The notes under the pieces: model-generated
What the model was told of the DNA's origin: nothing
The model's input: the letters and a program-made list of their open reading frames with translations, nothing else
Databases searched by the model: none
Position numbers and translations under genes: made by a program
Part shown: one piece after another, positions 15,030-63,014 of the stretch
How the letters are laid out: the number at the start of each line of letters is the position of its first letter
Numbering within the stretch: position 1 is the stretch's first letter
Assembly: GCA_902728285.1 (NCBI GenBank)
Contig: CACVBU010000702.1
Location: forward strand, 1,278,929 to 1,342,928
Reading direction: 5' to 3'
DNA: 64,000 nt
Source of the DNA: Clytia hemisphaerica
Taxonomy: Eukaryota > Cnidaria > Hydrozoa > Leptothecata > Clytiidae

Positions 15030-15771
15030 GGCTCCGTCACATTTTGAACATTGTCATTCTGCATCATTGTGCAAAAAATCAGAAAAAATTATGAGTCAAC
15101 ATTGAGAAAAGCTATATTTTCTTATTTGGTTAAAGGGAATTTCCCCCAAAATACGAAAATCCGTCTTTTAAGGCGAATAAGAATTTTCCGGGAAAAACCA
15201 CTTCAGCCATTCTTTAGAGAATCTTGCCCTCCATCTTTGTACAAAAAATCAGAAAAAAGTAATGACAGAATTTTGCACAAAGTCCAAAAACCCTATTTTT
15301 AGGCAAATTTTGGCCCAAAATTGCACAAATATATATTTTTTCGAAAATCGGGCTCCGACACATTTTAGGCATTGCCATTTTGCATCATTGTGCAAAAAAT
15401 CAGAAAGAAATAACGAGTCAACATTGAGAAAAGCTATATTTTCTTATTTGGTTAAAGGGAATTTCCCCCAAAATACGAAATCCTCTTTTTAAGGCGAATA
15501 AGAATTTTCCGGGAAAAACCACTTCAGCCATTCTTTAGAGAATCTTGCCCTCCATCTTTGTACAAAAAATCAGAAAAAAGTAATGACAGGATTTTGCACA
15601 AAGTCCAAAAAACCCTATTTTTAGGTAGTTTTTGGCCCAAATTTGCCCAAATAAATTTTTTCTCAAAAATCGGGCTCCGTCACGTTCTGGGCATTGCCAT
15701 TTTGCATCATTGTGCAAAAAATCTGAAAAAACTAATGAGCCAATCCTGAGAAAAGCTGGTAACAGACGGAC

Positions 15772-15803
<32 letters not shown>

Positions 15804-15862
15804 ATGGGTTAATTTATAGAACCTCCACCGGGGCACCCGGCGGTAGGTCCAAAAAGAGATTT
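15030..15862. repeat. Internally repeated element ending in a TAGGTCC hairpin (family P, copy 1)
   Basis: A unit containing TGCAAAAAATCAGAAA, CCCAAAATACGAAA and CCGGGAAAAACCACTTCAGCC occurs twice (about 15060-15400 and 15390-15720). A GGAC/GAAC tetranucleotide run (about 15766-15803) follows, then a short terminal hairpin ending GGTAGGTCCAAAAA. The inverse orientation appears at 52816-55110 and 63411-63720. The reading frames through it are just the repeat translated; no known protein domain. Confidence 0.75.
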
Positions 15863-16189
15863 TACTATTGATAGGGAGCACAAAAATCTAAACTTTCGCA
15901 AATCGCCTTCCCCAGTTTACATGACCAACCCAATGTTTTGTCTACTTCTGACTGAATTTGGCTTTCTGATGATTTTGATGGCGCTGAGTCAAGTGAAGTA
16001 GACAAGAGAGGATATCACCATTCTGAATTTTTTCACTTTTGTTTTCAAAAATCATATGAAAACATCAAAACAATAAAATATATTCTAAAGCACCATCAAA
16101 TTTTTTAAAACTATAATAAAAACATGAAAATACCTCCAAAATTTGAAAAAGATTGGTTCATTGGTCATGGTTTTGTTTCTTTTTCTCTA
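15863..16189. other. Non-coding spacer
   Basis: AT-rich sequence between two dispersed repeats. I see no gene, RNA or regulatory structure here. Confidence 0.4.
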
Positions 16190-26819: not shown

Positions 26820-29800
26820 TTAATCATCCCGTTTCTTTTTCAAATACCAGTTTGTTCGCTCTTCTTCCTTGTCCAACAAACTTTGAAAATACCAATTCAT
26901 CCCTTCCGCTGCTCTCTTTTCCTCTTCGTCACGAGAATCGGCCCGTTCATGCATCATTTCAGTATACCAACCATTTTCGTCATAAACCTGAAGACATAAG
27001 TAACCAGAGTGAATTTTTTTCAATCATCTTTTAGAAAATCTTTATCGAAAAAACGTAAGGAGTAATAACAAGCAAGTTCGTTAGTGAACAACAGGGTGGA
27101 CCAATCTAATCTTCGTCGTAGCTTGAATACTCAGACCAGCGAGTGCTTAAAGAAATAATCAATGAAAGTCTGATAGATAGCAGTTTTGTGCTTATTGAAA
27201 AGATGGGAGTGGAATATTGTGAAAAGAAGAAAGTTCTAAATATTTCTAAAAATGAAGATTGAAAATAAAGTAGAAAGAAATCAGCTCCTTCAATAAATTT
27301 GCTGTGTATTATTTTTCACTGGAGTGATTCTTCAATCCTAGAAGATTATTAATGTGAAAAATAAATTTATCAAAAAAAATTTATTCAATCAATCGAAAGA
27401 TATAGTTGTAAATTTATGTCTGATTGACTTTAAAAAAAACAAGATCCAAAGCTTCTGATGAAAACAGAAGATCATGAATGTTTCTACAAGAAGTTGATTT
27501 TCTTCGTCTTCTTCATTTTCTGTCTTCTTTTTTTTAATTTTTCTAATTCTTAATTTTTTGGTGATATTCCACTTTTGAATATCTTTCTAACGAACAAAAA
27601 AACCGCTACCTAATTCGAATTCTATCAAAAGTGAACTTTTTTGGCTCCACTGAAGATTATATTGAGACAGACTTAAGTAGGTGTTGACAGCAGACACTGT
27701 GAACGACAGTGATATCTTTAAACCACCACTTCTGGACTTATAAGCTGTAAACAATACAATTTGAAATCTCCACCATTCTTTTTATACCGGGTAACTGAGA
27801 CAGGGGTGTTGTAACTAAATGATCAACGAATAAAGAATTTGTTCTTACGTCATTATGGTCTCGTTCATCTGCACGGCTCTCTGATCGTCTGATGTACCAT
27901 GATGGATAAGGAATTTCTTCTTCAGGTTCTTCATCAAAAGATCCAATGTTTTCCTCAGCATCTGTTGCACTCCTATTTCGTTCCAATTTCGCATTTTGAA
28001 CTCTTTCTTCAAATTCTTGAAATCGTTTAGGGGGTGTCGGTTTTTGAGGGCGGCGTTTTGACATTTTGGGTGGGCTTGGTTTGGGCGGGTAGGGTGTGAA
28101 AGACTTTTTATGTTCTTCTTCCTCTTCTTCGCTACGTACCACGTAATATTCTTCCTCCCCGTTGACGTACTTCATGACGGTAAACGTCTTCTTTTCCCCG
28201 TCGACCTCGATTGTCGATAACGTGCTTTCAACCAACGTCGCCTTGTCAATTTCACTCCTTTCTTTGTTTTCTTTCTTGTCAGTTTTTTCTTCCTCTTGGT
28301 TTTTAATCTGGTCCGTATTTTTGTCTGATGTTTGCTTTGATTTTGCATCTTCTGCATAACTCCTGATTCGATAGATCTCTTCAGGTTCCTCAATTTCAGG
28401 GTTCGGGTCTGTAAAATATTCAATTTCAACTTTGGTGTTTGTATTGAATTCAGCTTCTTCTACAACCTTGTTTGTTTCTTGTTCTGCAAAATACTCAATG
28501 TCAACATTCAGTTTTGTATTATATTCTGGATTTTTCACGTACTCACCAGTAGTCAAATCTTTGAGATAATCGTACGCAGATTTGGTTTTTGATGGTTTAA
28601 AGTTAGGATTTCTAACAGTTTCCCCTGTTGTCAAATCTTTCAAATCCTCCACAGAGTTTTTACTCTCCTCTTCATTCTTTATGCAATTATTCTGGTCTGG
28701 ACAATACACACTTGGTATAATTGGAAGGTTTAAATTGACTAGCTCATCATCATAAGAATCGCCGTGTCGGAATTTCTCTAAACTTCGAGCTTTTCGTCGT
28801 TGCTTTTCACGGATTTTTCGCTGCTTCTTTTCTGCTCTTGCTTTTCCTTGTTTAGCAGATCTCTTTATTTTATCCAATTGTATTTGTGATTGGTTATGTC
28901 GCTTCTTGTAGTAATCCAATTTTCGTTGTAATCTATAGGTATTGAAAAACAATTCACTATTTTCACTGCATAATAGGTAGGCTTTATTGTATTTTCTTTA
29001 TGATCAGCGTAAAAATCCCTAAAGCTTTGGACTGTCTACTTTGCAAGCTTCCACATGACGAAAGATGAAGAAATTCCAGAAAGCTTTCAAAAGTGAAGGC
29101 ACCACGGATGCTTTTTAAATATGGTACGGCGAATGACAAAATTTTAAAGCTATTTTACCGACGTACCCGGTGTGCCATGCCTGAAGCGAAGCTTAAAATC
29201 TGTTAAAATAGTTCTCAAAGCTTACTCCATCTAAAAAAAATAGCCAATGAGCTATAACTTAAAGCTTAGAGGTCATGACATGACAACTTATTTAGCAAAA
29301 AACGTTGAATTCTGAATCAGGCTAATACGGAAAAACTTGGAATATTGTACGCATTTAAAAAAAAAATTATAAAGATATATACCGATCATTGATCAATTTA
29401 ATGGCTTGATATTCCTCTTCATTTTCATCTTCTCTTTCAAAACATTTCTTCTCTTTTGTTTTCTGTTGCTCAACAAATTTCTTGAATTTCATTTTCATCT
29501 TCTTAATTTTGCTTTCATATTTTTCTTTTTGACGTTCCAACGATTCTTCGAGATTTTCCAAGTTTTGACGTAAATTGAAACGTTCGAATCTCTCCCAATG
29601 ACGTTTTTCTTTTTCCAGTTGATGAATTTGCTTTTTGAGTTGATGGTTGTGATCTTCAAGTTCATTAATCTTCAAATAAAGAGGAAATGAAATATTATTG
29701 TTGTTCTTCGAAAAGGATATTTGAGCCGAAAACCTTTATGATATACAACGGACTACCCAAAGTCCACCGTCACTTCAAGTAATAAAAAGTATTTTTCCAA

Positions 29801-32800
29801 GGGTTTCTTTGAATTTTTTCTTCAGTTGCCAAGTGTTCCCAGCATTCATTTGTGTGGATGCCAAAACACAATTTAGAGATTTTTTTTGACTCGAAAAGGT
29901 TCGTCTTCCCCCTAGAGCAACCCAATCACTGAAGATGGGTGTCGAACTAAAAGACTAATTTGTTTAAGTGATAGAAAGATTTTAATCATAGAAAGTGCTT
30001 TACAAGTGTTCAACCTTGAAGGGAACTGAGAATAAGTTCGAACTTTAATTCGAATGATACGAGTTAGGGTCAGGGAGACTCTACTGTACTGTAGAATATT
30101 CGGAGGGATATTATGATACTAGCCGGTACCCGGCGTCGCACGCCGGTTAAGCTGTAGCTGAACGCACTAACAGTCCTTTGGATGTTATGAAGCTGGCTTA
30201 AAAAAACGATCAAATGAATAAAAAGATATTATCAAAGGTTGACTCTAACCCTCCCCCGGAAATCTTTTTCTCACTTTGCTCACATTAAATACGGCGTCCA
30301 GTTTTCGACAATTTGAGAAAATGTCATGGTAAAGAGGAGTCAATTCTAAATTACTTTTTTTAAACCTTGTCATAACTTTTCGAATTTAAACATGTAAAAT
30401 GACGTACACAGTTTTTAACAGTATCAACCACTTGTTTATCTTTTCTTGCTTTTTATCATCCTTTGAATGCTGTTATTGTTCGACAAACTTTTTAATTTTT
30501 ATGTTTTGATTTACATTTGAAATGTCCTTTTCTATAAAAGAAACTTGTTTTGTTTTGAAAAGAATTCGAATGTCAAGATAAATAAGTCAATTCTAAATTG
30601 CTTTTTTTAAACCCTTGTCATAACTTTTCGAATTTAAACATGTAAAATGACGTACACAGTTTTTAACGGTATCAACCACTTGAATGTTTTTATTTGAAGA
30701 AAGAGATGGACTAATTTTTTCTGTTGCTTTTTATCGCCCTTCGACAAACTTTTTGAATTTATGTTTTGATTTACATTAGAAAGGTTCTTTTCAATAAAAG
30801 AAACTTGTTTTGTTTTGAAAAGAATTCGAATGTCATTAAAAAATACGATCGTTAAATACATTCGAAAACATTTCAAACAAATAAAAAGAGAAAAACAGGA
30901 TCGGGCAAAGCTGTGCAGAAATTAAAATTACTAAATGTAGATGAGCCTTAAATTTCAAAACAAAGGCTGAATAGAGTCTAAACCAGGCTCTATCCGATCT
31001 GTCAATCAAAACAAACTTATCGAGAACAAAACATCGCTTGCGAAATCTTTTGCAAATGGCGCGAATCCAATAGAACAAATTTGTGGAGCAAATGACTAAA
31101 AGTCATAATTCTAAAACACAAACAAAGTGCAAACGAAAGTGGTGACACACAGACACACAAAGCACCGCTATTAGTATATAGATTACAGATATTAAGAGCC
31201 ACCCGCTATTTACCTCATCCTGATGTCTCGCTCTTTGTTTTTCTCTCACTTCTTTCAATTTCATCTTCAACTCCAGTTTTTGTGCTTTCAACCGTCGAAT
31301 GCGCTCACGTCGCTGCTCTTTTGTCTCGTCCATCTTGCGCTTCATGTCTCGCTTAGCTTTCTTCAAAACCATTTTTGATTTCGACTTGTAGAGTCTATAA
31401 AATTAAAATCAAAATTTTTTTATAAGAATATCCAAAATTTTTGAAGCCTTCAGATGTTCTTAACTTTTTCAGTTTCAAGTCTAAAAATGATTCGTTTTCA
31501 CGGTATATTTCTATCTTAGTAATAATGAACCATAACAAGCAGTTTCTTCATTTTTTGTTTTTCGAGTCTCTATAACTCGAAAACCCACGGGGGAAACAAA
31601 TTTGTTCGAGTTAGAAAGGAAAACTCGAGTTACGGAGACTAGTTTTTACGACATTGTTTAACTGAAGGGAGCAACAAACTTGTTCGAGTTAAGAAGACAA
31701 TCGAGTAATAGAGGTTCGAGTTATAGAGACTCCGTTGTATTATGGGAAATTTTCCTCACCTGAACATGCCCATGAGTTGATCTAATTTCAATTTCAACTT
31801 AGCTTTTTCAGCTCTAAGTTGATCTTCGACTGACTCAATACCTGCAGCAATACATTCTTTATCACATCGTGCGCCTCGCTCAGACAACAAGTCTACAAGC
31901 GGATTCTCCTTTTCGCAGGTCGTTTGTTGTTCATGGTCGAACTTTTTTTCTTCTTTTTGTTTTTGATGCTCTTCGTGTTGTTTATGCTGATATTTTTCAT
32001 TAACCACCTGAAAAAAAGATTGAATAATTTAAATTTTATATCACAAAAACATACAAGGGCTTCCGAAAAATCACAAGCGCTTTCTTCACAGGCTTCTTTC
32101 CTTTATGGCTTTACCATTACCACTAGCGCCTTTACGGTATCCTTCTCCTAAAGAAACAAACAAAACTCCCTTATTTTGCGGCTTCTTTCCTGTATGGAAG
32201 AATCGAGACTATCTACTCGGGTACACTGACCTTTTTATATCCTTGGACCAAGTCAAATCCACCATCTTTGATCTGAGTTTTTTTTTGTTTGAATTGATAC
32301 CCGAGAAGAAGCCATTGCAATGTTAAAGATTACATCATCAAAAGTATTCCAGGAAAATTAGATCTAGCGCTCTCGATGCATTTTCACCGCTATTGAGTAG
32401 TACCGCCATTAGGGTACCAATTTCTTCGATCAAAGATTTTTTGTTAGCCGGGATTGAGTAACTTCGTCCAGGGACAGTCAGTGCTAAGGCTACCTATTTC
32501 TGAAAGTAGCCCAGGGTTTTGTTCTTATAAAAAAAAGGTAAGCAAAAAATCCGTTTACCTTTTTCTGATTTTCTTCTTCGAGGAATTCAGCATATTGATC
32601 TTCATCCATGAAGATTTTGTGGCAATCTGGACCTGGTTGAATGTCTTTCATATCTGTTCATGAAAAGATAAGTAAGTCTTAAGGAGAGAAGATGAAAAGG
32701 GCTGTAGGATGTAGTATAGGCAGGGGGTATGAAAATTTTGTACCAACGTGTTTTAGATAGAATCCAAAAGATATTAACGTGCACTTCCTTGTTAAGCAAA

Positions 32801-35800
32801 GGGTCTAAGTACATGTAATTATGTGTCTTCAATTTAATATTTTACTGGAGCCTCCAGAATCCGAACCTGTGTTACTCGAATTTCTTCTCGATTCGAACAA
32901 AATTTCTTGTTTCTTCACTGAACAATACCTATGTTTCTATAACTAGAAAAAGGTTCGATTCTCTGACGTGTTGGAGTTATTGTAACTCCCTGGTAGTTAA
33001 TGATTTTGTCCATAATGTCAAGTACGAGAGTGTAGGTCACATACCGGGTGCGCCACAAAAAAGTTTCTGTCTTTAAAACTAATTTTCTAGAAATTTAAAG
33101 ATTTTAAAAGAACCATTCCTATTTTACTGATTTTCGGTTTTAGATTGGATATAGTCTATGTAAGGCTGGGTCTACCTCGAAACCAATATTTTATGTATTT
33201 TCATGAATTTTACCAGATTTGTTTGCCTTTTTCGACGAATTTTCTGCCTTTTATTGAAATTCAACTTTCCTTTACACAACAAAAGGTCATTTAGACAGCT
33301 AATTATCATTTTTAATGACTGAAACGAAAATACTGATGTATCATGTAATTATGCTTCTGTTTAGTTTGATAGGTCGATTTTCAACGTTTTCGAGCACTTT
33401 CAGAAAGTAACTTTTTTATTCAATTGAGCATAACTTTTGATCTAATGAATCGAATTTAATAAATGACCCATCAAAATTTAAGTTTATCTTTCTTCTTTCC
33501 AGTTAAGTATTATGGTTCTTTTAAAATCTTTAGATTTCTAGAAAATTAGTTTTAAAGAGAGAAACCTTTTTGTGGCGCACCCGGTACTTTAATCGGATTA
33601 AATTTCGCGAGATTAAATTTTGCGAGCGAAAAAAATCGCGAAATTTCGCGAGCCAGGAATCTCACGCGTTTTCGCGAGTTTTAATTTCGCGAAAATGGCA
33701 AAAAATCGCGAAATCGCCAAATTTAATCCCTCGAAAGTTAATCCGATTAAAGTATTTAAAAAGGCTATTGATTACCGATCATTGTTTCTTCATAAATCTT
33801 CTTAGTGGTTTGGAAAACTTGGATGCATTCTGGATTGTCATCAGCTTCGGGAACGAAAGGATCTTTAGATGAACTTTCTGGTGCCTTTGGTGTATTGTCT
33901 TGAGCAGGTTGTTCTGCTGCGACTTTGGCAGCATCTTTGTCACATCTGAGATCTTCACGAATGTCAGCCCAAACACATTGTGTTACTGGTTCACTGTTTG
34001 CACCATCAGAGAATTGAATCATGTTTATTGTAAAAGCAACTTCTTCCTTCTCATTGGTTGGTTCACCTTTGGTAAAAGAAAAGAATGTCGATGGTTAAAA
34101 AGAAGAGAATGGGCTTTTCCAGAAAAATTCACCCCTACTGTTGAGGATATTGATTTTTTGAAGTATCGAACCCCCTGGATATCCTACTTTATTAGTGAAG
34201 ACCCCCTGTATATCCACTCTTAAAAATATGCTCAACCCCCTGGATATCTTCTCTTATAAAGATGCTTACACCTGGATATCGTATCTTTTACTTGAAAAGA
34301 CACTTTACCCCTGCATATCCACTTTTGAACAAAAATCGTGGGCATCGACTATTTCTGGAAAAGTCCAATGTCGATGGTTGAAATCATTTCATTATTGGCC
34401 ACAGTGATTCTATCTTCAAGTCACGTGAGGATTTTTTTTCACATTATGTAAAATTCATATAATTCTGTTCTCATTTCTAGGTCGTACACAGGTTCAATCT
34501 CGACCTCGTTCCCTGTGTACTATCGGCTTTTTATATGCTTACTGATAGCGCTAGATAATATACGTTTATCAGTAACGTAAATAAAGCCTGGAATACATGG
34601 GGACGAGGTTGGTCCAATGTTTATAATTTTATTTTTCCTGACACAGACTAAGAAGGTAAACTGTAATACCTTTCTTAAATGTTGGCTCGTCATTATCATC
34701 GACTTGTCGGAGACTTTCCTCTGGTTTTGGGAAAGAAGGTCTCTTGGAGGGTGACGAGGGTGGTGGACAGGTGCATTTCTGTGGCGGTTGAACGGGCGTT
34801 TGCTTCAACTTCTCATCAGCTACGATATTTCCATAGCTAAACATTTTACGGAAACGTTGGACATTTCGAGCCTTCTTCTTGACTACTGCAGAGTCAGGAT
34901 GAAAACTTTTCACTTCTTTTTTCCATTTGTTTTTCAAGTTGATCCATGCTTTGTTGACGTGGTTTGATAGCCTCTCCACTGGTTTTCTAAGACTAGCGAA
35001 CGGTGATCCAATATTGAGATCAGGGATTGCACTGCTAAGGGCAATCAAACATGTTGAGAATGAGAAGCTCTCTGTGGATAGGTCTTGACCAATCTTAGCG
35101 CACGTTCGAAGTTTGGATAATTTTAGGGATGTATACTTGTTTCTCCAGTATGCAGCATCACGTCTTTGGTGACTGATCTGGTCTGTTAAATTGGTCAGGA
35201 GCTCTTCATCAGTGGTATTATGATATTCTGAGGAATGTTCTTCAACCACATAAACAAATGAATCGTCTCCACCAAGCAAGTAATTCTTGATTTGTGATTC
35301 CAAGTCCAGATTTTTGCTTCGTTTTTTCCAATACCAACTCATGCGTTTGTACAGACTAGCACGTTTCTTGTAATCTTCGTAACCGATCTTCATGGTCTGT
35401 AATTTGCGCTCCATTTCTCTGTTCTTGGCTAGCAGTAGTTTCATTGAATCTTTGGTAGTTTCAAACTCGTTATCAATGTAGATGAATTCTTCTATAGAAA
35501 ACGATAATAGAAAATACTTGAAAAAATATCTACTCATAGTCAATTGATACGTAATCCAAGGTTAAAAAGTCATAGTTTCAGATCTTCGATAGGAGATTTT
35601 TTTAACTATTCCCATCTTAAACTTCAATAGGCCTTTCATAAATTACGTCACGAGCAACGTTTACATCGTTTTCAAAATATTGCTGTGGTAAATGATTCCC
35701 AGAGGAGTTCACATAAGAAGTTGACCCTATTTATAAAGTTGAAGGCTCAAAAGCTTCAACCATCTTAACATTAGTTTCAGAACAAGGCAGCCGTCTAAGC

Positions 35801-38800
35801 TACGAGATGGATTAACTAGGATCGAACCCACAACCCTTGGATTGTAAGGGGGATGCTCTACCGATTGAATTATCCGGCAAAGCTAATATTAAAACAAATG
35901 CAATCACTGGAGAGTCTTCTGAGAACTTTTAGAATTTTCCACCCAATACTTCACTTAAACAATAGAAAAAGTGACGTATTGGGTGGAAAAAACAAACAGA
36001 AAAGTTGCATAATTTCGTAAAGTCATTGCAGTGGTGCATATCATGAATTAAAACAATTGCAATCATACCAGGTGGTTGTCCATCAATTGTTGGTAACAAT
36101 GAATTACGATGGTCATCAGCTGGTTCGGATATCAATCGGAAAGTAAACAAAGATCCAATTCCTAAAATTTGAAGAAACAAAAGACGAAATCAAAGGTTTT
36201 GTTTTTAAAATAAGACTGATATCGTTTGCTTGCTCATCAATAAAATTGAAGCTTTTTCAAATCGGACATTGGTACGGATGTGGAGCAAGATTGATCAGAA
36301 AGAGTAAAAAAACCCCTTTTTTTTGCTTATATCAGCACAATGTAACAATAGGCAGACACTGTCCTGATATGAAAAATGTGTCTGATATGAAACGGGAAAA
36401 CTTTATGTAAAACCTTTAAACTGAAAGAAGAAATTAACGGTTCTCACCAGTTCCCACAGACATACCAGCAGCGATAGATACACAGAATAATATAACCAGT
36501 GTTGTTGTTTTGATTGTCACAATTTCTTCTCGTTCTTCCGTCACATCTTTCTTGATGTACATAGAATCGAAGAGTGATGCTAACCCATAGGTACTCATTG
36601 TCATGATGTCATTCTCATCGTTCAAAATATCTTCACTTTCCTGATGGAAGGGGAGAAAAAAAGAATATAGTGAAGTTATATACACTGAAGAAGATACAAA
36701 CTAGCGACTAACCATGACGATGTGTAATGTCACTCTAGAGTCACCTGTCAGCTTAACAAGAAGAAAGAAATTAAAACATAGGCACAAAGTCTAACGATAC
36801 AGTTAGGTACAGCAGAAAAGGAATAGCCTGCGTAAACTTAATACTGAAATGATATTGACACATGTCAAAATATAAATACAATGGAGTCTCTTTAACTCGA
36901 ACCCGCACGGGGAACACAAATTTGTTTGTGTTAAAGGAATTTTATGGAGTAAGGTTTATAAGGCATTGTTAACTGAAGGGACAAAAAAACTTGTTCGAGT
37001 AAAGGAGACATTTGAGCTGTAGAGGTTCCAGATAAAGAAACTTTACTGTAGTCAATTTGTAAGTAGGTAATTCAATTGCTTATTATTCTTAAAATCGGTT
37101 GATGGTGATTGACCAATGTGTGTTTTATCGATCATAGACTTTTGAACGCATAAAAAAGTCGTTCTTGGATAAGGGATTGGGGACAGTCTAATATTTCTTT
37201 AAGAAGTGATGGTGATGTCTTTTAAATGAGCTAGAGACGAAGAGAAAAGTTCTAAGAATGTCAATCATAGGTTTAGTTTTTAATCAAGGCAGGGTTTTTT
37301 GTATAAAAAAGATTATAATTTGGAAAAGTATTGAAGGAAGTAGTAAGTAGCAAAGCTGTGAAAGTCAAAATCTTCTTGGTATCCAAACAGTCAGAACGAC
37401 ATTCATTCCAAACTCGTTTCCTTTTAACAAGTTTGAGCAGCACAATTCACTTTAAAATGAAAGATAAGCATAAAGTACCTTTTGCTGCTTGTATTCTTCA
37501 TTATCAACTTTGGTAAAATCATCAGATTCTGATTCTTCTGTTTTTGTAAGAGTTTCATTTTCATCAGACTCGCTTGTCACAATGACTTCTTCTTTATCTT
37601 TAATCTTTTCATCTTCCACTAGTTTTTGGTCAGCCTTCTTCCTTTTCTTCTTCTTTTTGTCTTGTTTAACTACCTTTTGAACTTCTTTGGGTTTCGATTT
37701 GGAGCTTTCTTGCTCTGTTTTCGAAAAATCTAAATGAAATACCATGAATGAATTCCCAGATAATCACTTAACAGTCTTAAAAAATTACATCGACTGACAT
37801 TATGACCCAGCATTGAGATTAGATTAGGACTAGAAGGGAGGGTGTCTTTTTTAACTCTATATTATAAATGGATCATATTTTTGGGGTTTGTCTAATATAA
37901 GGTCACTCCGATTCTAAAAGAAAATTGTTCAATAGACATTTTTTCTAACCTCTCAAGATACTTTCTTTTTTCATTTGTAGAATCTCAAGATCGATAGCTG
38001 ATCCTTCACCAACAATTTCGATACCGTAATCTTCAACATCAACATTTGCTGACTCCCCATCATTCATAATGGCATCATTATTGTGACCAAGTTCCACTGC
38101 TAACACATCTTCTGCATCTTCGATTTCATCAGAATCAATACTATCATTCGGACTTGCATTCTTAAGAAGAGCCTAAAATAGAGAAATTCATTGCATTGTT
38201 TATGTTCAAAATCTCAAAAGATTTACTTGTGCTTGAAAGCATAATAGCTCGGGTAAATTAATGCGTGTCCAAATTTTTTTTAATTCTTCGGACCCATCAT
38301 CACCCCTCCTAGCATAATAAACTATACCTTTAAAGAAGCGCATTACGATGTAGAACATGAAAATCGGTGTTACTTAAATTTAGGTTTTGCCAATTTTGCG
38401 AAAAACCGCAAAAACCAAAAAATGCTGACGTCAGCAAAACTTGTTTTTTAAATAACTCCAGTTTGCCTAATGGTATAAACATGAAATTTAGACCAAAGCT
38501 GCACATTATTAAAAGGATCATTTTGAAAAAAAATTTTTTTGAAATTTTGCTGATGTCTGTACTTTATTGCAAATTTTCGTATTTTGCTGATTTCTGCTGA
38601 CGTCAGCAAAATTTGAAAAATATGATTACGCAAAAAAATTTTTATTACTGATATCCAAGTTATTTGAAAAACAAGTTTTGCTGACGTCAGCATTTTTTGG
38701 TTTTTGCGGTTTTTCGCAAAATTGGCAAAACCTAAATTTAAGTAACACTAATTTTCATGTTCTACATCGTAATGCGCTTCTTTAAAGGTATAATTTATTA

Positions 38801-41800
38801 TGCTAGGAGGGGTGATGATGGGTCCGAAGAATTAACGAAAATTTGGACACGCATTAATTTACCCGAGAGGTTATTAATCTATTCCATTTTGTATACTACA
38901 AAATATTAAAAAAATAACACACAAATTCAATGGAAGGAAAACAACCTATCCTTTCTCAGAAATGAGATACTGCAGACCTACTCAAAGTGTAGTGAAAGGC
39001 CTTTAAATTTTTTATTCTATAGCATTTTGAGACAGTTCATAAAAATGAAAATGAAGTGAGTCCTCTGAGGAAGTCAATTTCAACATTGAAGTATAGCAAT
39101 CAATACCTGAGCATACAAGCTGGATGGTTGATCTTTGGTTGAAATAATTTCAATATCCGCATCTGTCAACTCATTGTTATTGTTTTGCTTGGTATAGTAG
39201 TCTTCACACACTTGAAGTGGTTCACTTTCAAAGGTGCGAACTTTGTTTTGAGGGATAACTTCATATTGATGTTCATCAGATGAAGAATTAGCATTTATGA
39301 ATTCGAACTCATTACGACGTTGCTGATCTTTCTTGCGTTGTTGATTCTTTGATTTCTATGGTAAACATATTATACACATAGGTTACTCTAAATTTATTTT
39401 TATATTTCTGAATTCTTATAAGCTTCGAAATTATTGCAATAAGTTTAAAACTAAAATTTATAATCTCTATCCTATCAACTAAACCTTGTGTAATAGTTTA
39501 CTTGTTCCAGAGAATCAATCAAAGAAAGTGAAATTAACAATATTACTATAGAATATCTGTGAGAAAGGATATTTTTTTTAAACTTTGAAAAAGTAGAGAT
39601 GGCAAAAAAGGTGCTAGACAAAACAATTTTACATTCATTTTTATTGGCAGATATCAATAAAATTATTTCACTGCAAGTCAAAATTTACAATCTGTTTTTC
39701 TCAGCCACACACTCATGTTTAATAATGAAGTGATTTGGTTATGTTTACCTTACTCAGGTAAGTTGGACTATACTTACTTCAGTATCTGTGATATTGAAAA
39801 TGCCCTAAGAAGTACCTATAGGAGAAGAGCCTACTAAACTTTAAAGGATTCCTTTATTTTACATTACAGCAATTTTATTCAAGGTTTAGTAGGGAATTAG
39901 AGAGAATTCATATTCGTAACAAGCTTTGTAATGTATCCAACATAAAGCAGTCAAGTTTTTTAGAAAGAAAATTTTGTGTTTAATTTGATCAAAAATTAGT
40001 TAATAAACCTAAATTTACTAATCCTTGTTTTGTCCGACCACGCTACTTCTTTTCAACCTTGACCTGATAGAAATCACTTATCAAACCCATGGTGCTAACA
40101 ATTATTCAAAATCATGTTAAACAAATAACAGTTTTTATCTTATCAAGCTGTGATGCATAATTAAACAACACAGTAATTGAATTAATTAAATATAATTAAT
40201 GTATGTTGTATTGAATAGCCAACAGTGGGGTGTGCTTCTTGTATGGAGAGCTTACTTAGCTTTATCATAGTATGATAGTGTGCACATTGAAAATTAAAAA
40301 ATAGATCTCATTAATCATTTTGTAATCTACATGTTTCTATGGCTGATCTAGAGAAAATTTTGTTTGCTTTTGTTTTGATTACTCATTCCTCATCATCAGG
40401 TACCTCTTATTCTTAGTTAGATTTTTTCTTAGGGATTTTAAAAACTAAAATTTTTAGTATTTTTTTCTGAAAACTATTGAAATGAATAAAAAGTGATGCA
40501 GCTATTAAATTAATGTATTTATGAAATATAATGTATGTAAGTAATGAAACCAAAATAATTAAAATATAGTAGGAAATAATAGCACAGATTTCAGAATATG
40601 CTGTACAAAAAATCTTGAATATATTCACAAATGGTTTATTTTGTATAGACAGTCATATATCTTTGAATGACAAATAATATAAAAATAGAGTTTTTAAAAA
40701 TGAACAGTTTTTGATTCAAAGAAAAATTTGATGAATTTTAAAAGCATAATACAATGTGGTTTCAGTAAATGTTGAATGCACTTGACCAAAATGTTATGAC
40801 ATTTTTAAACAAACTTTGAAAAATTCATATGCATTTGTCATGGCTGAAGAATAGGTTCAAAGGAATTTTCATAAAGTTTTTAAAAGTTTTATTTTCAATT
40901 ATTTACGAAATCCTTTTTAAAAATATATCAACTTCATTTTACTCTGGTTTTAATGGCTATTCACTATTACCAAGATATCCATCACAAGTCTTTTTATATA
41001 AATTTTTAATTTAATTGTTAAATTTCTCAGACAAAAGCAGCAAAAGCAAAGCTAAAATTGATGTGGAAATAGGTGTAAGAGAATTTACTTTTACTTTAAA
41101 TTCTATCTATGAACTTCTTTCCTGTGATTACAAAATTGTCAAAATTGTAAACGCCATTGAATCCACCTTTTCACTTCATAACAATTTTAGTAGAATTAAA
41201 AATTGTTCATCCACAATTTCCATTTTATAATCCTGTGGACGACATGGATTTTTTGTAACAGTTTACCTTTGAGAAACTTCTTGGATTTTCCTATACCTGG
41301 CAAGAAAATACGAAAATAGAGCAAATTTTCTGGATTTTCCAATACTGATGACCGAATAACCAGAAAAAACCCTGGATTTTCCTTATCCTTTTTTAATTTT
41401 CTTATTATTTCCAATTGAAAAAAAAGAGAAAAATCTCTGTCATCCACAGGAGGTTATGGTTTTTTTCTGGAACTGCCCAATTTGAAAACTCTCTAGGATA
41501 ATATTCCTAGCCTAAAGTTTACAAGGAAATATGTTTTGTCTGTGCAATGCCACCGCATCATTTGACCATGATCTAAACTATTGTGTATTGAAAATTTCCC
41601 CATAAAAATATTAAACAAAATCCATCTGCTAGCAATTTCTTTGGGTTGTAAACAAGCAAACAGAACTAAATTATAATCACAATTTAAACAATTGCAAAAT
41701 TTAGCTAGCCATTTGGTTCATTACTGTATTTATTGAATAAATACTAGACCACAATCAGAAATAGCTTCTATCAATGGATATTTGAAATAATGTACACAAA

Positions 41801-42084
41801 AATAATGCCTTTACTCTGCTATGCTAGCCTGGCTAGCAGTTCATCATATTATAAATGGTTTGAAGAGAAGAGCTGAAGAGAGGAAAACAAAGAAGTTTCT
41901 GATGATATGCTAACTTGACTACTACAGTACGTACCTTTAAAATTTGGTTTAGATTTTAATTTGGATGGCAAAGAAAAAAGCTGCTTGCAAAAAATGCAAA
42001 AAAGGAAAAAGAACAGATAAGTACCTTGCTCTTCTTGTCTTTGTTGTCTACAAAAGCCCAGTCTTTATTTCTTCGACTTGCCAT
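26820..42084 (-). CDS. Single-pass coiled-coil protein, candidate CCPG1/PBXIP1-like ER-phagy receptor
   Basis: Fourteen exons on the minus strand: 42025-42084 (ATG at 42084), 39107-39355, 37950-38172, 37479-37729, 36448-36640, 36069-36161, 34670-35491, 33776-34066, 32559-32653, 31760-32007, 31214-31394, 29383-29669, 27849-28932 and 26820-26987 (TAA). All have GT-AG borders and matching phases, giving about 1414 residues. Residues 1-300 are charged and acidic, with WAFV at 9-12 (a canonical LIR core) and DIEII/YGIEIV/DLEIL motifs at 87-91, 152-157 and 164-168. One membrane segment lies at about 306-333. Beyond it are NTT and NLT sequons (448, 457), a Trp/Tyr-rich QRRDAAYW region (about 465), then long Lys/Glu coiled coils to about 1060. 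A DLTTGE repeat occurs near 1098 and 1124, followed by an acidic, proline-rich tail. CCPG1 in vertebrates is a type II ER protein with an N-terminal WTVI LIR and a luminal coiled coil; the resemblance is architectural, and the name is inference. The exon model is firm. Confidence 0.7.
30337..30836. repeat. Tandem duplication of about 248 bp in an intron
   Basis: 30337-30584 and 30585-30836 are close copies in the same orientation (GTCAATTCTAAATT..., ...AAAATGACGTACACAGTTTTTAAC..., ...AAAGAATTCGAATGTCA). Each has a few indels, so the duplication is not brand new. It lies between exons 11 and 12 of the coiled-coil gene. Confidence 0.85.
31563..31737. mobile_element. Mariner/pogo-like MITE with GAGTCTCTATAACTCGAA ends
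   Basis: The right end reads inward from TACAACGGAGTCTCTATAACTCGAACC. The left end has GAGTCTCTATAACTCGAAAACC. AACTCGAA-type ends following a TACA start are typical of pogo/Tigger-type elements. A second copy is at 36889-37050. Intronic. Confidence 0.65.
33042..33586. mobile_element. Foldback MITE with TACCGGGTGCGCCAC ends
   Basis: Arms of about 75 bp (33042-33118 and 33508-33586) are near-perfect inverses, including TTTCTAGAAA(A)TT and AAAGATTTTAAAAGAACCAT. TA is present at both outer ends. Non-coding, in the intron below exon 8 of the coiled-coil gene. Confidence 0.85.
33585..33754. mobile_element. Small TA-flanked MITE rich in TCGCGA
   Basis: Ends CTTTAATCGGATTAA and TTAATCCGATTAAAG (33587-33601, 33738-33752) are exact inverses and are flanked by TA. 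The interior carries many TTTCGCGA words in both orientations. Its left TA (33585-33586) is also the right TA of the neighbouring 33042-33586 element. It ends about 20 bp from the exon 8 donor. Confidence 0.85.
34097..34380. mobile_element. MITE with GGGCTTTTCCAG ends and GGATATCC minisatellite core
   Basis: GGGCTTTTCCAG (34111-34122) is matched by CTGGAAAAGTCC (34355-34366). The interior holds about six units of roughly 35 bp with CCCCCTGGATATCC. The 13 bp word AATGTCGATGGTT occurs just outside both sides (34084-34096, 34368-34380) and may mark the insertion boundary. Same family as 5838-6109 but with a different palindromic core. Confidence 0.75.
35795..35881 (-). repeat. tRNA-like sequence (decayed tRNA gene or SINE head)
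   Basis: The minus strand reads GCCGGATAATTCAATCGGTAG, then GGGTTCGATCC at tRNA spacing: a good B-box and a fair A-box. The anticodon arm CCCTT-7-AAGGG can pair, but the loop lacks the usual T before the anticodon and the acceptor stem does not close well. I would not call it a functional tRNA. It is in the intron between exons 6 and 7. Confidence 0.5.
35934..36065. mobile_element. Hairpin element with TTTTCCACCCAATAC arms
   Basis: TTTTCCACCCAATAC(T)TCACTT at 35934-35956 is the inverse of AAGTGACGTATTGGGTGGAAAA at 35968-35991. About 35 bp later comes CATTGCAGTGGTGCATATCATGAATT, the same tail that follows the unrelated hairpin at 10732-10858. Confidence 0.65.
36190..36419. mobile_element. piggyBac-like MITE, copy 3 (inverted)
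   Basis: Element 36194-36415, inverse orientation to the other three copies. TTAA is intact on the right (36416-36419) but reads TCAA on the left, one change. Intronic between exons 5 and 6. Confidence 0.85.
36889..37050. mobile_element. Mariner/pogo-like MITE, copy 2
   Basis: Begins TACAATGGAGTCTCTTTAACTCGAACCC and ends AAACTTTACTGTA, with shared interior words with 31563-31737 (CACGGGG(A)AACA, AAATTTGTT). More diverged at the right end. Intronic between exons 4 and 5. Confidence 0.6.
38249..38867. mobile_element. 619 bp near-complete palindrome with CTCGGGTAAATTAATGCG ends
   Basis: Arms of about 200 bp (38249-38450, 38665-38867) are inverse through CTCGGGTAAATTAATGCGTGTCC, TCGGACCCATCATCACCCCTCC, AAAGAAGCGCATTACGATG and TTTTGCGAAAAACCGCAAAAACC. 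The centre carries several TGCTGACGTCAGCA palindromes. It lies in the intron between exons 2 and 3, starting about 80 bp from the exon 3 acceptor. Confidence 0.88.
39356..42024. other. First intron of the coiled-coil gene
   Basis: 2.67 kb, very AT-rich. Apart from the inverted-repeat element at 41232-41451 I see nothing coding or structured in it. Confidence 0.6.
41232..41451. mobile_element. MITE with CCTGTGGA ends and TGGATTTTCC repeats
   Basis: The left end CCTGTGGACGACATGGATTTTT and the right end AAAATCTCTGTCATCCACAGG are inverses with two differences. The inside has TGGATTTTCC at about 50 bp spacing, three to four times, echoing the minisatellite cores of 5838-6109 and 34097-34380. Just outside the right end is TTTTTTCTGGAACTGCCC, which resembles the CTTTTCCAG end of that family. 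Confidence 0.7.
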
Positions 42085-43565
42085 TGCAAAAGTCTTGAAC
42101 CATTCCTTGTATGAAAATGTTTCTGAAAAAAATTCTCGTTTGTCTTTGCTTGGGATGCACTCAGCTAAAAAATGTTTGGAACTCTGCTGTGGAAAACAAT
42201 TTTTTTTCGAAAGTTTGTTTTGATCACGTGACTCATAAATTATTCAAACAAAAGCGATAAAAAATGCGGGAAATAGCGGCCCGGATCATTTTTCCTATGA
42301 GTAACTTCCGCATCTTTCTAATAGAAAAGAGGGATCATTTGAGTTATTTAGTTATCAAAATATCAAATTTGAAATTACATGTTACTTCTTTTCTGGAAAA
42401 AATTCAGAGAAGAAGTTAGAAAGTCAAAATACAGGTGGATTAGATCGATGGCTCCCGGGATAGCTTTCTTACGGAACTAAAACTTGCATAAGTTAAGTTG
42501 ATCAGTCGAGTACTATTGCAAATTAGGAGAAATGCGGGTATTTCGCTTAAATAGGATGAATTATCCTAAATAAGATAAAATCGATAGCTTAGTTAGGAGA
42601 AATAGAAGAAAAAGTTGATTTTCTGAACAACTTCAGAGATCCGCGTCTTTTTAACTCTCTGAATCAATTATACTCATAAAGAAGATCATGTTAGGCCAAA
42701 TGTTAGCTTCTTATCAGCGCGGAGTGAAAAAATATAAAACATTTATCCTATTTTGGATAAAATATACAAATTAGGAGAAATAATGCTTTTGTTACACGCT
42801 TTGCCGTATGAAAAATATGAGCGTGAATGAAAAGTGTCGAAGGACGAGAAAGTGTTCATTCTCCTTGACACAAACCACACAAACGTAAATTGCGCAAATG
42901 TGTCTACTACAATAGGATAAGTTTATTTATATCTAAGTTTCTATTTCTTCAAAACATCGTTACGAGCAAAGTTTTTACTAAGAGAGTTTGATGCATAAAA
43001 TCTGAAGTTTGTCAAAAGTTGAATAACTTCTGAACGCACGCTGACTGATGGATCAGACTTCACAAGCATACTATACTGGCTCCAAATTTCTTAAATTATG
43101 CAAAGCTTGACGCGGATCTCTGAATTTGTTCAGAAAATCAACTTTTTCTGCTATTTCTCCTAACTAAGCTATCGATTTTATCTTATTTAGGATAAATCAT
43201 CCTATTTAAGCGAAATACACGCATTTCTCCTAGTTTGCAATAGTACCTGACTGTTGATGTTAATTTATGTAAAATTAGAGAAAATATTATGTTTCAAATT
43301 TACTTTCAAGTCTTCCAAATACATAAAATGGCTTTTCAATAGCACTTTTATCTAATTTTTAACAAAATTTAAGATTTCTATAGTAAAATATGCAGCCTTT
43401 TTCTCACGAATGTTGCAAAATGATTTTTCACTCAGTAGATTTATCGAATTTGCTTTCACATCCAGTGTACCGATAAAATCAACGCGGGTTTTGCGAAGTA
43501 AAGCATTTTTATTACGGATTTTATAATCAGACCTGAACGACGGATTTTAATTTAACAGTTCAAAG
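42085..43565. promoter_or_regulatory. Divergent intergenic region, coiled-coil gene and LSM6
   Basis: The two start codons face away from each other 1481 bp apart, so both promoters should lie here. 42503-43253 is a transposon. That leaves about 410 bp on the left and 310 bp on the right as candidate promoter sequence. I see no clear TATA box or initiator. Inferred from gene order alone. Confidence 0.5.
42498..43258. mobile_element. CAGTC-ended element with 5 bp duplication (TTGAT), copy 2
   Basis: A 751 bp element (42503-43253). The arms of about 145 bp are nearly perfect inverses (AGTACTATTGCAAA, AGGAGAAAT, AAGATAAAATCGATAGCTTAGTTAGG, AAAAAGTTGATTTTCTGAAC). TTGAT lies directly outside both ends. 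The motif GGAGAAAT recurs inside and next to the arms. Non-coding. Confidence 0.9.
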
Positions 43566-52500: not shown

Positions 52501-55500
52501 CAATACAAATTTGATTTTAGGGGTATTTTAGAGCCATCTGACCTGTCCCAGGGGAGTTTGTTACTGCTCAAAATAATAATTTCTGGTAGTTCAGTCCCTG
52601 GTCTATCCATTTGAAGTGATTGCAATAAAAAATTCTGGCCCTACTGGCCCCTAGAGGCCCAAAAAGCCAATAAGGTCTCAAAAAAGTACCAACTTTAGCT
52701 CAATTTTCCTAGAAATCCCAACATTGTCTGACCTCCAACTCTTCTGGTTCCTGAAAGACAACCCCCTGGTCTCTTATGATCAAAAGAGAAACTTATGTGA
52801 TCTCCTACCATAAATTTTTGGACCTACCGGGAGGTCCTTTAATTTGACCGTTGTCCGTTCGTCTGTTACAAGCTTTTCTCCGGATTGGCTCATTAGTTTT
52901 TTTTAATTTTTTGCACAATGATACAAAATGGCAATGCCTGAAAAGTGACGGAGCCCGATTTTTGAAAAAAATTTTTGGGGGGCAAATTTGGGCCAAAAAC
53001 TACCTAAAAATAAGGTTTTTTGGACTTTGTGCAAAATTGCTTCATTAGTTTTTCCTGATTTTTGGCAGAAAGATAGAGTGCAAGGTACCCTAAAATGTGG
53101 CTGAAGTAATTTTTCTCGGAAAATTTTTTTTTGTCGTCAAATACGGATTTTCGCAAATTTGGGCCAAAAAACTACCTAAAAATAAGGTTTTTTGGACTTG
53201 GTGCAAATTGCTTCATTAGTTTTTCCTGATTTTTGGCAGAAAGATAGAGTGCAAGGTACCCTAAAATGTGGCTGAAGTAATTTTTCTCGGAAAATTTTTT
53301 TTCGTCGTAAAATACGGATTTTCGTTTTTTTGGGGAAATTCCCTTTTACCATTTTCCTGTTAGCAGCTTTTCTCGGGATTGGCTCATTAGTTTTTTTTAA
53401 TTTTTTGCACAATGATACAAAATAGCAATGCCTAAAAAGTGACGGAGCCCGATTTTTGAAAAAAAAATTTGGGGGGCAAATTTGGGCCAAAAACTACCTA
53501 AAAAAAGGTTTTTTGGACTTTGTGCAAAATTGCTTCATTAGTTTTTCCTGATTTTTGGCAGAAAGATAGAGTGCAAGGTACCCTAAAATGTGGCTGAAGT
53601 AATTTTTCTCGGAAAATTTTTTTTTGTCGTCAAATACGGATTTTCGCAAATTTGGGCCAAAAAACTACCTAAAAATAAGGTTTTTTGGACTTGGTGCAAA
53701 ATTGCTTCATTAATTTTTCCTGATTTTTGGCAGAAAGATAGAGTGCAAGGTACCCTAAAATGTGGCTGAAGTAATTTTTCTCGGAAAATTTTTTTTCGTC
53801 GTAAAATACGGATTTTTGTTTTTTTGGGGAAATTCCCTTTTACCATTTTCCTGTTAGCAGCTTTTCTCGGGATTGGCTCATTAGTTTTTTTTAATTTTTT
53901 GCACAATGATACAAAATAGCAATGCCTAAAAAGTGACGGAGCCCGATTTTTGAAAAAAAAATTTGGGGGGCAAATTTGGGCCAAAAACTACCTAAAAAAA
54001 GGTTTTTTGGACTTTGTGCAAAATTGCTTCATTAGTTTTTCCTGATTTTGGCAGAAAGATAGAGTGCAAGGTACCCTAAAATGTGGCTGAAGTAATTTTT
54101 CTCGGAAAATTTTTTTTTGTCGTCAAATACGGATTTGCGCAAATTTGGGCCAAAAAACTACCTAAAATAAGGTTTTTTGGACTTGGTGCAAAATTGCTTC
54201 ATTAATTTTTCCTGATTTTTGGCAGAAAGATAGAGTGCAAGGTACCCTAAAATGTGGCTGAAGTAATTTTTCTCGGAAAATTTTTTTCGTCGTAAAATAC
54301 GGATTTTTGTTTTTTTGGGGAAATTCCCTTTTACCATTTTCCTGTTAGCAGCTTTTCTCGGGATTGGCTCATTAGTTTTTTTTAATTTTTTGCACAATGA
54401 TACAAAATAGCAATGCCTAAAAAGTGACGGAGCCCGATTTTTGAAAAAAAAATTTGGGGGGCAAATTTGGGCCAAAAACTACCTAAAAAAAGGTTTTTTG
54501 AACTTTGTGCAAAATTGCTTCATTAGTTTTTCCTGATTTTTGGCAGAAAGATAGAGTGCAAAGTACCCTAAAATGTGGCTGAAGAAGTTTTTCTCGGAAA
54601 ATTTTTTTTCGTCGTCAAATACGGATTTTCGCAAATTTGGGCCAAAAAACTACCTAAAAATAAGGTTTTTTGGACTTGGTGCAAAATTGCTTCATTAGTT
54701 TTTCCTGATTTTTGGCAGAAAGATGGAGTGCAAGGCACCCTAAAATGTGGCTGAAGTAATTTTTCTCGGAAAATTTTTTTTCGTCGTAAAATACGAATTT
54801 TCTTTTTTGGGGGAAATTCTGTTTTACCATTTTCCTGTTAGCAGCTTTTCTCATGATCGGCTTATTATTTTTTTTCATTTTTTGCACAATGATACAAAAT
54901 AGTAATGCCTAAAAAGTGACGGAGCCCGATTTTGAAAAAAAAAATTGGGGTAAATTTGGGCCAAAAACTACCTAAAAATAAGTTTTTTTGGACTTGGTGC
55001 AAAATTGCTTCATTAGTTTTTCCTGATTTTTGTCAGAAAGATAGAGTGCAAGGTACCTTAAAATGTAGCTGAAGTAATTTTTCTCAGAAAATTTTTTTTC
55101 GTCATAAAATTTTCAAAAAAGACGACCAAGTTACACAATGATAAAAAAAAATAAATCAGACGTTTTTGCATTGTTCTAAAACTTATTGTGTTTGCTCAAT
55201 ACCAATAATAAAATGTAGAACGCCTACTTTTATCTGATTTTGATCAACAGGTAGGTCCATTCAGCATGTTGCTTGTTTATCTTTATTTAAAAATATTCTT
55301 AACATTGCTTGAAAAATGACTAAAATTTGGGATATTTTGGCCCATTGGCAAACTTCAAAGGGGTTTAGGTCACTTAATTTGTTATAATATAAGAGCTATG
55401 ATGAATTTATATAAAAACAATGAAACTAGGTGAAAAAAGTTGTCAAATGTGCTTTTTTGGGCCAAAAAGGCTTTTTTTTCAAGTTTTTGACTAGAGTTGA

Positions 55501-62701: not shown

Positions 62702-63014
62702 TCAATCAATTGTATCTTCCAACGAACCCAGTACTTCTTGTATATCTTTATTATTCCATTGTCCAGAAGTGCTTTCACATAACACTTTGAACATATTCCC
62801 TGAGTTACTTCTCACCATCTTGACTGTTCTGAATGTCTTAAAGGATTTGTCGGTTCCAAGTGAAGTCAAAGTACTGATAAACGAAGCAAGCAGTGAGTAG
62901 CTAATGTAGAATAGGATGATGTATGTCATGACCAAAGCCGACTGTGTTGCGCGACCAAGGCTTCTGAAGTAAGCCATGTCATAACGGATATCCCCGAAAC
63001 CAATTGTGCTCAAA
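62702..63014 (-). CDS. Potassium channel C-terminal exon, probably two-pore (K2P) type
   Basis: A single terminal exon of 103 full codons ending in TGA at 62702. It is preceded by a CTAG acceptor at 63015-63018 and enters one base into a codon. It starts with LSTIGFGDI, a potassium selectivity filter. The GFG form, rather than GYG, is typical of the second pore loop of K2P leak channels. It is followed by about 20 residues, then a hydrophobic segment (about residues 27-50: SALVMTYIILFYISYSLLAS) matching the last membrane helix, and a short cytosolic tail of about 50 residues. Upstream exons would lie at higher coordinates; none is seen before 64000. Whether the gene is intact cannot be judged. 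Confidence 0.8.

Follow-up and report, generated by a model that had tools for sequence, protein, structure and literature searches.

Does an invertebrate possess an ER-phagy receptor of the CCPG1 type? The question is raised by a gene on the minus strand of a 64,000-nucleotide stretch of Clytia hemisphaerica DNA, hereafter the window, for which a sequence-only reading had proposed a candidate receptor of the CCPG1/PBXIP1 type.

Gene structure and second genomic copy

The gene runs from 42084 down to 26820, and its 14 exons (Table 1) are joined by 13 GT-AG introns into an uninterrupted frame of 1414 residues, in agreement with the 14-exon protein initially read from this DNA. Its start codon is the first in-frame ATG following a stop. 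A colinear second copy (C419), encoding 1415 amino acids, is found in the same assembly. It retains the frame and all splice dinucleotides, including the exon 11 acceptor AG, and differs in length in frame, by 12 bases in exon 8 and by 9 bases in exon 13. Exon 1 with its 15-base flanks is 98.9% identical between the copies, and no change is seen in the membrane segment, the LIR or the FIR-core sites. The dN/dS ratio between the copies is 0.19 overall, 0.13 for residues 1-305 and 0.097 for residues 306-630. The preserved splice sites and frame, together with this dN/dS ratio, show that the gene is real and that selection acts on it. Genome searches with exon 7, with the membrane region and with the C-terminus gave, for all three queries, no match at E <= 1 outside this locus and its C419 copy, and thus no further paralogue is seen.

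In the 1 kb upstream of the ATG, neither copy contains a UPRE, ERSE, ERSE-II or CARE word, which speaks neither for nor against induction by ER stress. E-box/CLEAR-like and AP-1 words found upstream were rejected: they occur 6 and 12 times, respectively, across the 64 kb, and the second copy keeps neither match.

Table 1. Exons and short motifs of the gene, in window coordinates.
Feature	Position	Strand	Content
Exon 1	42025..42084	-	residues 1-20: start codon, di-arginine R4-R5, D-WAFV LIR
Exon 2	39107..39355	-	residues 21-103: EFEFI, YEVI and DIEII motifs
Exon 3	37950..38172	-	acidic, cytosolic part
Exon 4	37479..37729	-	cytosolic part: basic patch KKKKKRKK and DFTKV 248-252
Exon 5	36448..36640	-	residues 262-325: juxtamembrane part and bulk of membrane segment (306-325), by hydropathy
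Exon 6	36069..36161	-	end of membrane segment (326-330), then start of presumed lumen
Exon 7	34670..35491	-	residues 357-630: helical stretch, then Pro-rich stretch
Exon 8	33776..34066	-	gene model
Exon 9	32559..32653	-	gene model
Exon 10	31760..32007	-	gene model
Exon 11	31214..31394	-	charged; coiled coil by eye only
Exon 12	29383..29669	-	charged; coiled coil by eye only
Exon 13	27849..28932	-	end of charged region, DLTTGE-V-NP unit twice, acidic stretch and first of the WY units
Exon 14	26820..26987	-	three more, C-terminal WY units and stop codon
WAFV LIR core	42049..42060	-	residues 9-12; D at -1, D at +4; same in second copy
FIR-core-like motif DIEII	39143..39157	-	residues 87-91; same in second copy
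Sequons NTT448, NLT457	35184..35219	-	sequence

Membrane segment and long C-terminal part

The layout of the protein is that of CCPG1 or of yeast Atg39, with a W-type LIR, a polar cytosolic part, one membrane segment and a long lumen. By hydropathy, a single strongly hydrophobic stretch is found at residues 306-330 (best 19-mer mean of 2.16, at 309-327), which corresponds to the one membrane segment placed near 306-333 by the sequence-only reading; the best 19-mer elsewhere reaches 1.27, at 499-517, and the N-terminus is not hydrophobic. The flanking charges, in our own reading, leave the orientation of the segment undecided. The acidic region that had been described is present in that residues 1-310 carry more acidic than basic side chains (74 D/E, 48 K/R), but residues 1-100 are balanced (18 of each). 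C-terminally of the membrane segment, the protein is indeed as long as had been claimed, with about 1080 residues. The two close sequons are also there, yet the number of sequons is not above chance, with 4 in the lumen against 6.0 in shuffles and 4 against 2.8 in the cytosolic part. As for the "long coiled coils" of that reading, their basis is composition together with a low-confidence AlphaFold2 model of exon 7 alone, which is all-helix when the two copies are given as input (mean pLDDT of 46.5). Amphipathic 18-mers do occur, such as that at 521-538, whose moment of 0.59 is the second among ten listed.

Searches with the whole protein returned no Pfam family up to E 10, a null result that is uninformative since the CCPG1 sequence used here likewise returns none up to E 1. 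The one NCBIfam match (E 7.7) is meaningless, the three iron-sulfur protein chains matched by residues 1-630 in a PDB sequence search (E 1.4-1.7) are not meaningful, and one scan of viral contigs gave no relative.

Short motifs of the N-terminal part

WAFV lies at residues 9-12, where it had been noticed. Within the first 25 residues, a W-type core arises in 3.3% of shuffled whole proteins, a figure that concerns the sequence motif only, and an aromatic LIR core in 19% of shuffled cytosolic parts. The second acid-preceded LIR-like motif of the earlier reading, YEVI, was located at 51-54, with D47 and E48 ahead of it. LIR-like cores are frequent, 16 being present in the whole 1414 residues. When D/E is required at -1, and with P values that are uncorrected here as for all motifs below (four patterns in the main shuffle run, further patterns in other runs), 3 cores are found in the cytosolic part versus 0.66 in shuffles (n = 4000, P 0.02) and 3 in the lumen versus 2.50 (P 0.46). 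No GABARAP-type motif, (W/F)(V/I)xV, occurs in the cytosolic part.

The published core of the motif binding the FIP200 Claw (FIR), with D/E first, is present 8 times in the cytosolic part versus 2.85 in 4000 shuffles (P 0.006), and 7 times in the lumen, which serves as internal control, versus 6.96 (P 0.55). The six-residue FIR consensus given in a review, which DIEII fails, shows no excess in the cytosolic part (3 versus 1.69, P 0.23) and an excess in the lumen (10 versus 3.34, P 0.001). Other FIR-like patterns give, by shuffling, 0.06 for DI..[LIVM], 0.03 for DI..[LIM] and 0.006 for [DE][IV]..[LIVM]. A six-residue pattern shaped after the motifs had been seen (0.0006) was dropped as post hoc, the published core being preferred. 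FIR1 of CCPG1, according to the published description, contains S22, D23, I24 and E25.

A di-arginine is present at residues 4-5, which is a published position for type II ER signals and is expected in 1.7% of cases by chance. This di-arginine and the cytosolic excess of the FIR core, an excess that the longer consensus does not share, are additions to the earlier picture.

These motifs bear on whether the protein could instead belong to the type II coiled-coil proteins of the ER or Golgi and serve as a structural component or scaffold, like triadin, junctin or other proteins with a charged lumen, its LIR- and FIR-like words having arisen by chance in an acidic tail. Such words are short and frequent, the lumen is charged, the sequons are at chance level and domain databases give nothing beyond a meaningless match, as would be consistent with this role, even though the CCPG1 sequence used here lacks a Pfam match too. 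The excess of the FIR core is nevertheless confined to the cytosolic part, and the LIR is placed at the extreme N-terminus and is identical in both copies. Moreover, triadin and junctin have short cytosolic tails, unlike the 305 residues found here. We consider a scaffolding role possible, but less likely than not.

Comparison with CCPG1, PBXIP1 and Atg39

Human CCPG1 and PBXIP1, the only two human sequences compared, entered every comparison in versions not taken from a database record. PBXIP1 (HPIP) is a single-pass protein with a coiled coil and a charged part containing tryptophan, features that the Clytia protein resembles, and both proteins have an N-terminal tryptophan as well as a charged lumen in which tryptophan occurs. 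Region by region, comparisons with this PBXIP1 sequence are nonetheless at chance level: shuffles are as good in 3940 of 5000 cases for the membrane segment (as are 13 of 21 decoys), 382 of 1000 for the cytosolic part, 748 of 2000 for the coil end, 1691 of 2000 for the W-rich part, which scores under the shuffle mean, and 1037 of 2000 for the C-terminal domain. That the gene is an invertebrate PBXIP1 is very improbable.

With CCPG1, several features are shared. A basic patch precedes the membrane segment in CCPG1 and likewise in the Clytia protein. CCPG1 is not known to have an N-terminal di-arginine, which sets the Clytia protein apart. The lumen of CCPG1 is a coiled coil bearing regions that interact with cargo, and CCPG1 is induced by ER stress; on the Clytia side, helices are modelled in exon 7 at low confidence. 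According to published descriptions, CCPG1 also has a W-type LIR near its N-terminus (W14 and I17), FIR-like motifs of acidic and hydrophobic residues in its cytosolic tail, a single membrane segment and a long luminal C-terminal part; the latter comprises 518 residues, compared to about twice as many in Clytia. The Clytia protein further differs in that no UPR word is found upstream, that sequence similarity is not significant and that the C-terminal domain common to CCPG1 and PBXIP1 is not found, as the sequence-only reading had suspected.

The protein might be a true deep homologue of CCPG1, which may hold alongside a role in ER-phagy. Its weak hints with human CCPG1 run collinear. The membrane segment scores 31 versus 20.3, with 134 of 5000 shuffles and 0 of 21 decoy segments as good, although this test is weak, as the human paralogues CCPG1 and PBXIP1 themselves give 69/5000. 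The cytosolic part scores 93, which is reached by 2 of 500 plain shuffles and by 13/1000 and 16/1000 block shuffles (72 when reversed), and the comparison of CCPG1 with PBXIP1 likewise gives 93 (1/1000). Other comparisons weaken this kinship. BLASTP against human CCPG1 gives a best E of 0.75, and a 20-residue CCPG1 peptide used as query gave no match. The membrane segment with the first part of the lumen is equalled by 23 of 1000 plain shuffles, but by 138 of 2000 when the parts are shuffled apart, and the lumen by 15 of 300 plain shuffles, but by 112 of 300 block shuffles. For the C-terminal domain, 548 of 2000 shuffles are as good, versus 0 of 2000 for CCPG1 with PBXIP1. The resemblance of QRRDAAYWRNKY to the end of the CCPG1 coil, which had been noted in support of the assignment, does not withstand the whole lumen as control, as 490 of 1000 shuffles are equal and the reversed lumen scores higher (41 versus 36). 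CCPG1 is, in addition, termed vertebrate-specific in the two papers drawn on here (PMC5791736, PMC9126229), and no title on an invertebrate CCPG1 was found among the literature matches listed (CCPG1 with PBXIP1, invertebrate, Hydra or metazoan; PBXIP1 with ER and autophagy; cnidaria with ER-phagy).

In sum, pairwise similarity is significant to neither protein; weak hints from the membrane segment and the cytosolic part, at 1-3% by shuffling, favour CCPG1, and none favours PBXIP1. Of the CCPG1/PBXIP1-type assignment, the layout stands, strengthened by the second copy, R4-R5 and the FIR-core excess; a PBXIP1 affinity is unsupported, and kinship with CCPG1 is hinted at but not proven by sequence alone. 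We regard deep homology as possible, while leaning against it. If it held, the family would predate vertebrates, and the C-terminal domain would have been gained in vertebrates or lost here.

Atg39 has a luminal amphipathic helix. It is compared here by layout: as described in the published account, yeast Atg39 is of type II, with an LIR at 5-13, a cytosolic Atg11-binding site at 52-59 and a luminal C-terminal part. The layout of the Clytia protein fits this description, with its N-terminal LIR and a predicted type II orientation that would place the C-terminal part in the lumen. Atg39 differs in having 398 residues in all and in belonging to the perinuclear ER.

Proposed function

In the best reading of this layout, the protein would span the ER membrane once, in type II orientation, and would act as a selective ER-phagy receptor, as do CCPG1 and yeast Atg39. 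The N-terminal 305 residues would lie in the cytosol and R4-R5 would keep the protein in the ER through retrieval. WAFV, and perhaps also EFEFI, YEVI or DFTKV, would bind Atg8, and acidic hydrophobic motifs such as DIEII could bring in the FIP200 Claw. Luminal cargo might be collected by the helices in the lumen, upon which the loaded ER patch would enter the autophagosome. Atg8 is present in the genome (11 exon matches, best E 2.8e-22), as is ATG101 (E 1.6e-35); FIP200 (PF10377, PF04108) was not found by searches that are exon-blind. We consider the chances evenly balanced that the protein is an ER-phagy receptor working like CCPG1.

A broader proposal, which we put forward as unlikely though not negligible, is that ER-phagy receptors of the CCPG1 type did not originate with the vertebrates, and that C. 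hemisphaerica has a form with a lumen twice as long, a different C-terminus and a switch between ER residence and removal. As R4-R5 stand four residues ahead of W9, COPI and Atg8 binding would compete, in a switch-like manner. An invertebrate protein in which autophagy motifs, membrane segment and long lumen follow one another as in CCPG1 would take the CCPG1 family back to early animals, or would indicate that the layout of CCPG1 and Atg39 was arrived at independently.

Results

Gene model and second copy

The 14 exons were placed on the minus strand from the coordinates of the sequence-only reading. Each of the 13 introns has GT-AG ends, and splicing yields a 1414-residue frame with a single stop, its start codon being the earliest in-frame ATG following a stop; neither AATAAA nor ATTAAA was seen within 600 bases 3' of the gene's stop. 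The strongest support for this model is a second copy on contig C419 of the same assembly (417 Mb, 951 contigs), probably the uncollapsed other haplotype, which is colinear with the gene region, matches within the 30 kb compared being spread over window 25,196-50,387 (those of 250 bases or less were discarded). It contains 14/14 exons with all donor and acceptor dinucleotides retained, and the only coding length differences, of 12 and 9 bases, are each divisible by three. The whole model behaves as coding sequence: an alignment of 1411 codons gives dS 0.095 and dN 0.018 (ratio 0.19). By part, the ratio is 0.13 (residues 1-305), 0.10 (306-630), 0.27 (631-997), 0.21 (exons 13-14) and 0.47 (1110-1340), the last part being only weakly constrained. 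The 14-exon gene initially claimed is thus upheld by its introns, its open frame and its conserved copy. Searches of the genome at E up to 1 with three parts of the gene (exon 7, membrane region, C-terminus) give matches solely at this locus and in the C419 copy.

The MITE-like insertion of intron 2 differs between the copies, since the C419 copy is without about 620 bases there (window 38248-38867).

Features of the window and of the second copy
Feature	Position	Strand	Observation
Gene	26820-42084	minus	14 exons
Second copy	G000 C419:3386000-3415999		colinear with window 25196-50387
MITE-like element, intron 2	38241-38874		pair of 217-base arms separated by 200 bases; complementarity 96%
Repeat, intron 11	30338-30835		260-base unit, twice, 83% matching
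CLEAR-like E-box overlapping an AP-1 word	42223-42235		about 150 bases 5' of the ATG; inner TCACGTGA retained in the C419 copy, AP-1 word not retained there; such words not rare within the window
Anoctamin (TMEM16) exons	1468-4628	minus	PF04547, E 1.7e-76 and 2.4e-25, plus dimerisation domain
Exon-like frame like a potassium channel pore	62705-63028	minus	Ion_trans_2, E 0.008, under curated cut-off
Several near-identical frames	52906-54908	minus	e.g. FLAQICPPNFFFKNRAPSLFRHC; looks like a repeated element
Similar frames	15048-15868	opposite to the preceding

Protein anatomy and N-terminal signal

Residues 1-305, presumably cytosolic, are polar with a KKKKKRKK patch (74 D/E against 48 K/R over residues 1-310). 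They precede the sole strongly hydrophobic stretch, residues 306-330 (best 19-mer 2.16; next best, residues 499-517, 1.27), in agreement with the single membrane segment previously placed near 306-333. Residues 331-1414, the putative lumen, are charged, and sequon number is at chance level in both parts alike. Structure prediction for exon 7 gives seven helices, indicating a helical tendency at most, since mean pLDDT is only 46.5. DLTTGE-V-NP is repeated in exon 13, and four WY units are C-terminal (W1343, W1366, W1391, W1406).

A di-arginine missed by the earlier reading lies at residues 4-5, four residues ahead of W9. As excerpted from PMC2799409, consecutive arginines at 2-3, 3-4 or 4-5 from the N-terminus are an ER signal, first described in type II membrane proteins; such a signal arises in 1.7% of shuffled proteins. 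R4-R5 supports a predicted cytosolic N-terminus and ER residence.

LIR and FIR motifs

The LIR core WAFV (residues 9-12) has D at -1 and at +4; according to part of a review (PMC7615515), GABARAP binding depends critically on acidic residues in positions -1 and -2. Mutations made in CCPG1 target W14 and I17 of the LIR and, in the FIR motifs, S22-D23-I24-E25 and S104-D105-I106-L109 (PMC5791736, in extract). Crystal structures define a FIR core that opens with an acidic or phosphorylated residue, followed by a bulky hydrophobic one, any two residues and finally L/I/V (PMC7946963, in extract). With its first place restricted to D/E and 4000 shuffles as control, residues 1-305 contain eight matches (DWAFV, EFEFI, DIEII, DVLAV, DLEIL, EVQKV, DFTKV, EIVTI) vs 2.85 in shuffles (P 0.006), and the lumen 7 vs 6.96 (P 0.55); all motif P values are nominal, four patterns having been used in the main test and others in further tests. 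EIVTI, which abuts the membrane, is unlikely to be usable. The approximate human CCPG1 sequence has 4 vs 1.22 (P 0.03) and the approximate PBXIP1 sequence 1 vs 0.99. The review's six-residue FIR consensus, which DIEII fails, shows an excess in the lumen (10 vs 3.34, P 0.001) and none in the cytosolic part (3 vs 1.69, P 0.23), and a pattern search finds no GABARAP-type motif in the cytosolic part; these results count against the FIR-core finding.

Comparison with CCPG1 and PBXIP1

The human sequences compared are approximate: ten published CCPG1 residues agree, but the CCPG1 version used has a length of 807 vs the published 757. BLASTP against both gives no significant match (best E 0.75, in the membrane segment). 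Against CCPG1, this segment scores 31 (shuffle mean 20.3; 134/5000 equal or better) in a test of little power, because the human CCPG1-PBXIP1 pair itself reaches only 69/5000. The segment outscores 21/21 decoys from the neighbouring anoctamin and mitochondrial cox1 and cob. The cytosolic part scores 93, with plain shuffles as good in 2/500 and block shuffles in 13/1000 and 16/1000. Adding the first luminal stretch to the membrane segment gives 23/1000 with plain shuffles and 138/2000 with the parts shuffled apart. The coil segment said to resemble CCPG1 scores 36 vs 22 locally (33/3000 shuffles as good; 59/3000 with local shuffles), a resemblance lost in the whole-lumen control, where 490/1000 shuffles are as good and the reversed lumen scores 41. 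For the whole lumen, 15/300 plain but 112/300 block shuffles are as good. The C-terminal domain common to the human CCPG1 and PBXIP1 sequences used (143 vs 29.6 between them, 0/2000) is not found here, as had been suspected (548/2000 and 1037/2000), and PBXIP1 is at chance level in every region compared.

Overall, the layout is CCPG1-like, homology with CCPG1 is possible, and membership is unproven. Of the proposed CCPG1/PBXIP1 type, the layout stands; significant similarity, likeness to PBXIP1 and the common C-terminal domain do not.

The mitochondrial contig of the assembly has 14,551 bases; cox1 extends to its end, TGA is read as tryptophan, and frames read by eye give nad4, cob, cox1 on one strand. 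This order and the terminal cox1 fit linear hydrozoan mitochondrial DNA.

Discussion

CCPG1 is termed vertebrate-specific in passages of two papers (PMC5791736, PMC9126229), and no invertebrate CCPG1 is among the literature titles listed; annotated relatives may already exist in protein databases. PMC12005454 describes CCPG1 as unique among mammalian ER-phagy receptors in having a long luminal domain, and as binding luminal cargo. The order of parts in yeast Atg39, as extracted from PMC9126229, matches that of our protein, which shares the CCPG1/Atg39 layout and is not assigned to the CCPG1 family. Atg8 (11 exon matches) and ATG101 are found in the genome; intron-blind searches with PF10377 and PF04108 gave no FIP200, control genomes being negative (PF10377) or below cut-off (PF04108) as well. 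By analogy, the protein would most likely work as CCPG1 does: R4-R5 would retain it in the ER, its Atg8- and FIP200-binding words would face the cytosol, and its luminal helices would gather cargo, all binding steps being ones that we infer.
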